37,128 bases of DNA from Verrucomicrobiota bacterium (GTDB lineage Bacteria; Verrucomicrobiota; Verrucomicrobiia; Limisphaerales; JADLHS01): the NCBI GenBank assembly GCA_025350905.1, contig JANXWY010000195.1, positions 1-37,128 on the forward strand, read 5' to 3'. Position numbers and translations under genes: made by a program. The notes under the pieces were generated by a model. It was not told the origin of the DNA and did not search any database. It worked only from the letters and a program-made list of their open reading frames with translations. This document shows positions 2,515 through 4,818 of this stretch, in pieces. Position 1 is the stretch's first letter. Every line of letters begins with the position of its first letter.

Positions 2515-2740
2515 TTCATCTCCAGACGCAAAACAAAACGTCGCGGCCGGGGCCGGTTGGAGCGGGTCTGGACACGGCGCCCGCCCCGGCGGGAAGGGGA
2601 ATGGCTCGGAAGCGGTTTGGCTTGGTGGTCGGCCCACCAACAGCAAATGATGAGCGCGGCTGGGGCCACCGGCGCCCGGCCGTTTCCTGGGGGCAACAAA
2701 TAAATTGACCCGCCCGTTGCCGGCGAGTTAAGGTGCGCCT
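2515..2740. other. Divergent intergenic region between mgtE and the leuA leader
   Basis: This 226-bp stretch must hold the promoters for mgtE (minus) and the leu leader (plus). The mgtE-proximal part is GC-rich and low in complexity and can be read as a Pro/Gly-rich extension of mgtE, which I do not accept as coding. Near the leader I see TTGACC at 2705-2710 and TAAATT at 2701-2706 as possible promoter elements, but neither forms a convincing -35/-10 pair with suitable spacing. AAGG at 2730-2733 is a plausible ribosome-binding site for the leader peptide. Confidence 0.4.
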
Positions 2741-2812
2741 GTGAGTCGCAATTTGAATCTGAACCTGCTGCTAAATGAGCTGCTTCCGGGCCGCGCGGTA
2801 GCTGGGTTCTAA
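2741..2812 (+). CDS. leuL: Leucine-rich leader peptide of the leuA attenuator
   Basis: A 23-codon reading frame: GTG start, TAA stop at 2810-2812, and AAGG seven bases upstream of the start. Seven of the 23 residues are leucine (positions 5, 7, 9, 10, 11, 14 and 15). They include a run of three consecutive Leu codons at 2765-2773 and a pair at 2780-2785, using TTG, CTG, CTA and CTT. The Asn-Leu alternation before the run is unusual. The peptide sits 177 bp upstream of a 2-isopropylmalate synthase and directly before a terminator that overlaps an alternative stem. In known leu attenuators (Enterobacteria, Actinobacteria) such a peptide measures charged tRNA-Leu supply: stalling at the Leu codons favours read-through. 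Too short to find by homology; the call rests on composition and position. The name leuL is by analogy. Confidence 0.82.
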   Translation: MSRNLNLNLLLNELLPGRAVAGF

Positions 2813-2838
2813 TTGCACGACGAGAATTTCGAGAACCC
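2804..2838 (+). promoter_or_regulatory. Antiterminator stem of the leucine attenuator
   Basis: GGGTTCT at 2804-2810 pairs perfectly with AGAACCC at 2832-2838. The stem continues as AATT (2811-2814) with AATT (2825-2828), leaving a three-base bulge and a ten-base loop, for about 11 pairs in all. The right arm uses bases 2834-2838, which are also the base of the terminator's left arm, so the two structures exclude each other. The left arm covers the last codons of the leader peptide (GGG TTC T). A ribosome that finishes the peptide would therefore mask it, while one stalled at the upstream Leu codons would leave it free. The pairings are read directly; the mechanism is inferred from the classical model. 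Confidence 0.78.
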
Positions 2839-2865
2839 CACTGCCAGCCCGGCGGTGGGGTTTTT
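2834..2865 (+). terminator. Rho-independent terminator of the leucine attenuator
   Basis: The left arm AACCCCACTGCC (2834-2845) pairs with GGCGGTGGGGTT (2851-2862) in a 12-bp stem with one G-U pair and the loop AGCCC. The T tract at 2861-2865 begins in the last stem bases and is followed by GTTTG. It lies 22 bases after the leader stop codon and about 120 bases before the leuA start, so it would cut the transcript before the structural gene. This is the strongest intrinsic terminator I found in the window. Confidence 0.88.
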
Positions 2866-2944
2866 GTTTGGTTCGATCAGAATTTTTGCCACGCTCGCGA
2901 GCTGGAACGCTGGAGCTGAGGTTTTGGATTTAGAAGAAGATTAC

Positions 2945-2988: not shown

Positions 2989-4644
2989 ATGTTGAAAGAT
3001 CCGTCCCAAAAATATCGACCGTTCCCGCCGGTGGTGTTGCCCGACCGGCAATGGCCCAACCGGGTGCTGACGCGCGCGCCGCGCTGGTGCAGCGTGGATC
3101 TCCGGGATGGCAACCAGGCGCTCGCCGTGCCGATGAACGTTTCGCAAAAGCTCGAACTGTTCACCACGCTCGTGAAGTGCGGGTTCAAGGAAATCGAAGT
3201 CGGCTTCCCATCCGCGTCGAACACCGAGTTCACGTTCAACCGCCGGCTGATTGACGAACAGCGCGTGCCCGCCGACGTCTGGATGCAGGTGCTCGTGCAG
3301 GCGCGCGAGGATTTGATCGAGCGTACCTTCGAATCGCTCGTGGGCGCCAAGAAAGTAATCATTCATTTGTACAACTCCACCTCCCCGGCGCAACGCCGCG
3401 TGGTCTTTGGCAAGTCGAAGGACGAAATCAAGGCGATGGCGGTCAACGGTGCGAAGTTGATCCAAGCGCGTTTGCCGCGGCTCCGGGGCGCGGAGGTCCG
3501 GCTCCAGTATTCCCCGGAAAGCTTCAGCATGACGGAAGTTGAGTTTGCCAAGGAAATTTCCGAGGCGGTGATGGACGTCTGGCAGCCGACGCCGGAGCGG
3601 CCCATGATTTTGAATCTGCCGGACACCGTCGAAGTGGCCATGCCCAACGTGTATGCGGATCAGATTGAGTGGATGTGCCGGCACCTTAAACGTCGGGACG
3701 CGCTCGTCATCAGCTTGCACACGCACAACGATCGCAGCACCGGAGTGGCGGCCACGGAGTTGGGCCTGCTCGCCGGGGCGGACCGTGTCGAAGGCACGCT
3801 CTTCGGGAACGGTGAGCGCACCGGCAATCTCGACCTCGTCATCGTGGCGATGAATCTCTACATGCACGGCATTGATCCGAAGCTCGACTTTGGCGACCTC
3901 AATGCCATCCGCGACGTCTACGAACGCTGCACCGGCATGACGGTGCCGGAGCGTCAGCCGTACGGGGGCGAATTGGTATTCACCGCGTTCAGCGGTTCGC
4001 ATCAGGATGCCATCAACAAGGGATTGGCGGAACGGGAACGCGGCGGGCCGGCGCATTGGGACGTGCCGTATCTCACGATCGACCCCACGGACATCGGCCG
4101 CGAATACCGGGAGGTCATCCGCGTCAACTCCCAGTCCGGCAAGGGCGGCGTGGCGTATTTGCTGGAGACGGAGTTCGGCATCTTGCTGCCCAAGGAACTG
4201 CAGCGGGAGTTCGGACCGATTGCGAATGAGATCGTGGACAGGCTCGGACGCGAAGTTAGCGGCGCCGAATTGAAGACGATGTTCTGGCGCGAATATATTG
4301 AGCGCCCGCAGCCGTGGGCTTTGCAAGGCTTCGAGACGGAGAGTAAGGATGGCGTCGTGAAGTGCCGGGTCAAGCTGCTGCGCGACGGCCAGCCGGTGGC
4401 GTTTTCGGGCGAAGGGAATGGGCCGCTTGCGGCGCTGGTGCACGGTTTCAGCACCGCCGGCGTGCCGCGCTTCGAGATTGCCAATTACAGCGAACACGCC
4501 CTGAGCGCCGGGGAGGAGGCCAGCGCCATCGCTTACATCCAGATCAAACCCGCCGGCGGGAAATCCCGCTGGGGCGCGGGCGTGGACACGAACATCGAAC
4601 TCGCCTCGGTCCGCGCCGTGCTGAGTGCGCTGAACCGGTCTTGA
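2989..4644 (+). CDS. leuA: 2-isopropylmalate synthase, long (LeuA type 2) form
   Basis: A 551-residue cytosolic enzyme for the first committed step of leucine synthesis: acetyl-CoA plus 2-oxoisovalerate gives 2-isopropylmalate. The N-terminal TIM barrel carries the DRE-TIM metallolyase signature D-L-R-D-G-N-Q (residues 37-43). Metal ligands lie in H-T-H-N-D (244-248), followed by the G-N-G-E-R-T-G-N loop. The final ~110 residues (from about W-A-L-Q-G-F) match the LeuA regulatory domain that binds leucine for feedback inhibition. The opening motif R-A-P-R-W-C-S-V-D-L and the length point to the fungal/actinobacterial long form (TIGR00970 type) rather than the ~515-residue E. coli type. The ATG at 2989 follows AAAGG. 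Expression is probably controlled by the leader and attenuator at 2741-2865. No other leu gene follows, so leuBCD must lie elsewhere. Confidence 0.94.
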   Translation: MLKDPSQKYRPFPPVVLPDRQWPNRVLTRAPRWCSVDLRDGNQALAVPMNVSQKLELFTTLVKCGFKEIEVGFPSASNTEFTFNRRLIDEQRVPADVWMQVLVQAREDLIERTFESLVGAKKVIIHLYNSTSPAQRRVVFGKSKDEIKAMAVNGAKLIQARLPRLRGAEVRLQYSPESFSMTEVEFAKEISEAVMDVWQPTPERPMILNLPDTVEVAMPNVYADQIEWMCRHLKRRDALVISLHTHNDRSTGVAATELGLLAGADRVEGTLFGNGERTGNLDLVIVAMNLYMHGIDPKLDFGDLNAIRDVYERCTGMTVPERQPYGGELVFTAFSGSHQDAINKGLAERERGGPAHWDVPYLTIDPTDIGREYREVIRVNSQSGKGGVAYLLETEFGILLPKELQREFGPIANEIVDRLGREVSGAELKTMFWREYIERPQPWALQGFETESKDGVVKCRVKLLRDGQPVAFSGEGNGPLAALVHGFSTAGVPRFEIANYSEHALSAGEEASAIAYIQIKPAGGKSRWGAGVDTNIELASVRAVLSALNRS

Positions 4645-4818
4645 ATCCATGCACCAAGCTAGCCCACGTTTTTTGCCGTCGCCACGCTCGCGCTTATGGC
4701 GAAACGGAGCCCAAAGCCGTCGAGCCCGGAGCGGGAGGGCCGGCTCGGATTTATGCGGCGTGTAGTCCCCCTGGCCACTCAGCAGCATCGCGAGTCACCC
4801 CTTTACCGATGGCTGACT

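Follow-up and report, generated by a model that had tools for sequence, protein, structure and literature searches.

Organization of the leuA locus

The window, that is, the whole stretch of 37,128 nucleotides that was analysed, contains leuA, whose product is the committed enzyme of leucine synthesis. The gene stands alone, with an unrelated TIGR03790 gene as its downstream neighbour. Between mgtE and leuA lie a promoter pattern, a short Leu-rich ORF and a hairpin with a T tract. Because mgtE is on the opposite strand, no upstream gene on the strand of leuA ends at this predicted terminator. The features are:

1117–2646, other strand: mgtE, the upstream neighbour (TIGR00400)
2705–2710, plus strand: -35 element TTGACC (most of 69 relatives have TTGAC ~36 nt upstream of the leader's start)
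2729–2734, plus strand: -10 element TAAGGT (spacer 18, with 6 nt between the box and the leader GTG; from 69 upstream regions)
2741–2812, plus strand: leader peptide ORF of 23 codons, VSRNLNLNLLLNELLPGRAVAGF, with 7 Leu (sequence read directly, and order-wide consensus)
2755–2771, plus strand: region 1, Asn/Leu codons that serve as the pause hairpin's left arm (fold; duplex and recoding z over 63 sequences)
2795–2810, plus strand: region 2, the last leader codons (AVAGF) together with the first stop-codon base, pairing with region 1 or region 3
2830–2845, plus strand: region 3, shared by the antiterminator (as its right arm) and the terminator (as its left arm) (fold, covariation and duplex tests)
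2851–2869, plus strand: region 4, the right arm of the terminator and the T tract (16-bp stem; covariation in 72 relatives)
2989–4644, plus strand: leuA, 2-isopropylmalate synthase of the PRK03739/TIGR00970 class, the putatively regulated gene (NCBIfam NF002991 at 807.8 bits and TIGR00970 at 721.0 bits, both above the cut-off)

The leader reads GTG AGT CGC AAT TTG AAT CTG AAC CTG CTG CTA AAT GAG CTG CTT CCG GGC CGC GCG GTA GCT GGG TTC TAA, which translates to (V/M)SRNLNLNLLLNELLPGRAVAGF-stop with the stop codon at 2810–2812. Leu accounts for 7 of the 23 codons, including a run of three at 2765–2773 and a pair at 2780–2785, exactly as a previous reading made from the sequence only had it. The window's LeuA class is held by 69 of 146 Limisphaerales genomes, and the regions upstream of leuA in the order give the leader peptide consensus VNxNLNLLLxNALLLxxAAVGF, with V or M as its first residue. 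The leaders of 69 relatives contain a mean of 6.4 Leu (range 4–9); the number and position of the Leu codons differ from one relative to another, while Leu-richness is kept. In the alignment Leu is spelled with different codons and the residue is retained. Synonymous changes make up 0.248 of the codon differences in the leader frame versus 0.131 and 0.107 in the other frames, an excess restricted to the leader frame and about twofold over either alternative.

In 69 relatives TANNNT is found ~12–13 nt upstream of the leader's start. Of 71 promoter pairs, 51 have a spacer of 17, and a gap of 6 or 7 nt from the -10 hexamer to the start codon is likewise seen in 51. Thirty-eight of the 69 relatives show a strict promoter-plus-start pattern, for which shuffles give an expectation of 0.005; 56 leaders begin with GTG and 13 with ATG. 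Since bacterial transcription begins ~7 nt past the -10 box, the mRNA should begin at the leader start codon, and the leader mRNA is probably leaderless, with its 5′ end at or next to GTG 2741. The hexamer AAGGTG at 2730–2735 was considered as a Shine-Dalgarno sequence for the leader and rejected, because the relatives keep TANNNT at this place and have no purine-rich box; the apparent Shine-Dalgarno is more likely a part of the -10 box TAAGGT (2729–2734). In an AT-rich relative (L258, G032:C2:71239–71384) the same layout is written in different letters, TTGACA-N17-TAATAC with GTG 7 nt on, and a Leu-containing leader and a terminator lie upstream of leuA.

Three helices and the proposed attenuation of leuA

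For the 132-nt RNA the folding energy is -54.9 kcal/mol (z -3.5), and its minimum free energy fold consists of a pause hairpin and the terminator. The terminator had been described as a 12-bp stem at 2834–2865. A hairpin with a T tract is indeed there, and its extent is larger: 16 pairs at 2830–2866 (2830–2845 with 2851–2866, loop 2846–2850), with the T tract inside the right arm and continuing to 2869. Its sequence is CGAGAACCCCACTGCC-AGCCC-GGCGGTGGGGTTTTTG, the 16 pairs including the A-U tail. The claim of an alternative stem using the same bases as the terminator's left arm is also borne out. In this antiterminator GGGTTCT (2804–2810) pairs with AGAACCC (2832–2838) over 7 bp, and past a 2-nt internal loop the pairing is extended by GGTAG (2797–2801) with CTGCC (2841–2845), so that it occupies nearly the whole left arm of the terminator. 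Its own left arm had been placed in the last leader codons, in agreement with the position of region 2. A third helix, the pause hairpin, pairs 2755–2771 with 2795–2809 over the regulatory codons. It was absent from the sequence-only reading, as were the probable leaderless start and, to be described below, the leader of a second LeuA class and a putative attenuator of ilvB.

All three helices are kept among relatives and show covariation. In 72 of them, 96.9% of 864 terminator cells are paired, compared with 38–62% when the alignment is slid; both sides have changed in 5 of 12 pairs, in 35 cells versus 7.0 in shuffles, a type of covariation control that is inflated by sequence relatedness. 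For the antiterminator 80.6% of cells are paired versus 33–55% when slid, with a consistent mismatch at alignment columns 90/133. Over 63 sequences, a leader's own arms fit better than swapped arms with z of -5.0 (2:3), -9.9 (3:4) and -6.4 (1:2), values likewise uncorrected for kinship. Synonymous recoding of the same peptides weakens 1:2 (z -10.5) and 2:3 (z -3.8), so the nucleotide sequence is kept for pairing, over and above the peptide. The alternation of Asn and Leu at the start of the leader, previously noticed as unusual, is real and finds an explanation here, because the Asn/Leu codons supply the pause hairpin with its left arm. CTGAACCTGCTG would be this left arm, partly mimicking region 3.

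The possibility should be weighed that the product of the 23-codon ORF is a small hydrophobic protein with a function of its own, with the hairpin as the terminator of that gene and leuA under a separate promoter. The peptide end AAVGF is conserved across relatives, which speaks for a protein, yet the same stretch is region 2 and matches regions 1 and 3 better than synonymous recodings do. The varying number and position of Leu in a peptide that stays Leu-rich also argue against such a protein, and so does the layout of three relatives. The distance from the leader stop to leuA varies from ~60 to 300 nt, and in L021, L031 and L032 it is 59–66 nt, where the terminator fills the gap and almost reaches the leuA ATG. 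Since no room is left for a second promoter, the leuA mRNA of these three must cross the terminator. We regard the small protein as highly improbable. A transcription start downstream of 2865, named by the sequence-only reading as a finding that would count against attenuation, is also unlikely in view of this layout and of the promoter conserved 5′ of the leader.

The arrangement is very probably a ribosome-mediated transcription attenuator of the classical three-helix type, with charged leucyl-tRNA as its signal and leuA as its target. Leucine-responsive attenuation of leuA had been proposed by the previous reading; the conserved Leu codons and the compensatory changes in both stems, which were to be looked for by alignment among Limisphaerales, support it. 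As in other ribosome-mediated attenuators, a predicted short ORF is rich in cognate codons, a terminator lies upstream of the structural gene, the 1:2 helix covers the regulatory codons, and the downstream gene makes the amino acid that would be sensed. An antiterminator that is mutually exclusive with the terminator (2797–2810 with 2832–2845) has its left arm where a ribosome at the stop codon would lie.

Transcription would start at or next to GTG 2741, and ribosomes would load on the 5′ end of the leaderless RNA. When leucine is ample, the ribosome would reach the stop codon at 2810–2812 and cover region 2 (2795–2810); region 3 (2830–2845) could then pair with region 4, and RNA polymerase would stop in the T tract near 2866. 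When leucine is scarce, the ribosome would stall at the Leu codons 2765–2773 and cover region 1, so that 2:3 pairs before region 4 is made, no terminator forms and leuA is transcribed. With no translation, 1:2 would form and termination would be the default. The mechanism was checked by folding 69 sequences. When the first Leu run is masked by a ribosome, 2:3 forms in 69 of 69, and without a ribosome pairs of 1:2 appear in 57. With the ribosome placed at the stop codon, the terminator of the window remains, at -28.6 kcal/mol. The window's antiterminator, at -17.4 and with the 2-nt internal mismatch, is weaker than this terminator, and its formation would have to be favoured by kinetics, as holds for classical attenuators.

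Spread of the leader and two classes of LeuA

Nearly all upstream regions long enough to judge show the leader followed by AACCCCACTGCC-loop-GGCGGTGGGGTTTTT. A covariance model, R1, was built from 72 leuA leaders of relatives. The sequence-only reading had staked itself on conservation of the ORF and the stems in relatives, and R1 matches the element in 129 of the 146 Limisphaerales genomes, where the training sequences match by construction and the independent part consists of ~60 genomes from which the window's LeuA class is absent. R1 gives the window 117.7 bits (E 6.5e-32), compared with 31.7 bits for the second-best place in the genome it comes from. With the fold z of -3.5 and this order-wide conservation, the leader arrangement is more than chance. 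A wider spread of the leuA element beyond the order was considered and rejected; in a scan of the phylum outside Limisphaerales, R1 matches reach at most 33.3 bits and mostly cover the terminator part. Two weak R1 matches in the window's genome (G000:C33 and G000:C378) were likewise rejected as leu leaders, the former resembling an ordinary gene-end terminator.

The genes behind 40 fetched R1 places, mostly in genomes without the window's LeuA class or second matches, are the other LeuA class in 30 places, the window's class in 1 and ilvB in 4, with 5 unassigned (2 of them at contig ends). The other class is TIGR00973/NF002086, with two examples above the cut-off. The same leucine leader thus precedes the TIGR00973-type LeuA (L222–L250 and L258–L261). 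Two genomes, G063 and G124, hold both LeuA classes, each class with its own leader. The idea that leader lineage follows LeuA class was set aside, since in a leader tree from an alignment too short for a decision the class changes 19 times versus 25.8 in shuffles (minimum 19). One leader upstream of two LeuA classes points to a regulatory element that may have outlasted replacement or duplication of the enzyme.

In Verrucomicrobiales (L058–L062, L066 and L115), the region upstream of leuA carries a strongly conserved Leu-rich ORF ending in TALLLLSLRLTxG-stop, followed by a conserved GGCGGCCCGCGTTTCCTCGTCATGC. This ORF differs from the Limisphaerales leader, has no T-tracted hairpin and possibly represents a different leucine control. 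Between the terminator and leuA of the window, at 2936–2967, lies a repeat of the GATTAAGAGCAAGATTAAGAG type, of which six other similar copies were matched in the genome.

Relation to known systems and a putative ilvB attenuator

No Rfam 15 family, including Leu_leader (RF00512) and the T-box model, matches the window or 17 loci at the gathering score, and a relaxed threshold gives only unrelated families. The absence of such matches bears on the possibility that a riboswitch, a T-box or a protein-binding leader senses leucine or tRNA directly, with the ORF being incidental. A conserved RNA upstream of leuA would suit direct sensing, but what is conserved is a coding frame with many cognate codons. 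Furthermore, the codons must be read, because the ilvB counterpart described below has Val codons instead. Direct sensing is accordingly a very improbable account.

The leu attenuator of Salmonella and E. coli (leuL) consists of a Leu-rich leader ORF, pause, antiterminator and terminator helices and a T tract, with a leucine gene downstream. The attenuator proposed for the window resembles this system (RF00512) in the Leu-rich ORF, the three helices, the T tract and the downstream leucine gene. It differs from leuL in that leuA is alone with an unrelated gene next to it, and in that the leader is predicted to be leaderless and mostly starts with GTG. The actinobacterial LEU element has a Leu run that pairs to the Shine-Dalgarno box of leuA, and no typical terminator; judged by its T-tracted terminator and by the variable leader-to-gene distance (~60–300 nt), the window's leader is not of this kind. 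The LEU element has been proposed as a pseudoknot formed by leuA leaders of Actinobacteria (PMC1262725). According to the account given in that paper, mutational results for the leuA leader of S. coelicolor did not agree with classical attenuation (PMC1262725), which advises caution for the reading of the window. In Streptomyces lividans, leaderless Leu-rich leaders are located upstream of leuA (leuL1) and of leuS (leuL2); of the two, leuL2 contains a hairpin as well as a U stretch, and leuL1 has no typical Rho-independent terminator (PMC8079986). The window's leader shares with them a Leu-rich peptide and leaderless transcription, the latter predicted here (PMC8079986). Unlike leuL1, it has a classical terminator, and the peptides differ, the S. 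lividans leader being MRFGLLLLSCRGEGL and the Limisphaerales one following the consensus given above.

Such leucine-rich leaders without typical terminators upstream of leuA in Actinobacteria (PMC1262725, PMC8079986), and the Leu-rich ORFs without a T-tracted hairpin in Verrucomicrobiales L058–L062, raise an alternative: the leader could alter the translation of leuA or the stability of its mRNA, with the hairpin as a mere roadblock or end-protector that does not terminate transcription. In the analysed leaders, however, a strong T-tracted hairpin (mean -23.9 kcal/mol) follows 10–26 nt past the leader stop. The distance from stop to leuA, by contrast, ranges over ~60–300 nt; the leader is tied to the terminator and not to the ribosome site of leuA. 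An effect on translation or stability is therefore very unlikely, though slightly less so than the small protein or direct sensing, and transcription attenuation is preferred.

A second, Val-rich leader was found in the order:

G000:C346:4657–4850 (L263), the window's own genome: Val-rich leader MFGQIRQVIAVVVVVVGDAVGTGRG, beginning at 4657, and a T-tracted hairpin, upstream of ilvB

Most of 33 ilvB loci across the order have the Val-rich leader and the terminator, and the spacing from promoter to start is similar to that of the leuA leader, mostly 7–8 nt. Homology of the two leaders is unsupported, since a profile of the leuA leader ORF alone reaches at most 3.2 bits on ilvB upstream regions versus 5.7 on shuffled ones; their similarity is confined to the terminator part. 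In Corynebacterium and Mycobacterium, ilvB attenuators have a branched-chain leader ORF with a terminator and an antiterminator (PMC11857589, PMC13236596). These are the functional counterpart of the Val-rich ilvB leader, and they differ from the window's leuA leader in gene, phylum and leader sequence.

We lean, with some reserve, towards the view that Limisphaerales possess a set of attenuators on branched-chain genes that have no Shine-Dalgarno sequence and whose leaders are translated from leaderless RNA, with the -10 box fixed 6–7 nt upstream of the leader start codon. A leucine cassette would precede the two LeuA classes, and a separate valine cassette ilvB. If this is true, leaderless initiation is an integral part of sensing in a Gram-negative phylum. 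The leuA leader is a likely example, from outside Actinobacteria, of a leader peptide translated from leaderless RNA; no open-access paper was found that joins Verrucomicrobiota and leaderless start sites. The mechanism itself is that of the textbook. Judged by Rfam 15 and open-access papers, its probable occurrence in this phylum is new, and no description of a leucine attenuator of Verrucomicrobiota was found in these sources, in keeping with what the sequence-only reading had supposed. Leader-peptide attenuation, documented mainly in Proteobacteria and Actinobacteria, would be extended to Verrucomicrobiota with order-level comparative evidence, and the covariance model is available for annotating leuA leaders in this phylum.

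A repeat related to the GATTAAGAGCAAGATTAAGAG type also lies upstream of ilvB in the window's genome (L263). In two genomes a conserved CCCGCGATTGCCAGTCAATCGCGGG terminator is located just 5′ of an ORF beginning MMKTN and after another short ORF (G000:C378:14944–15011, L264; and L253/L269, G074:C316). This terminator and the preceding short ORF are perhaps another leader.
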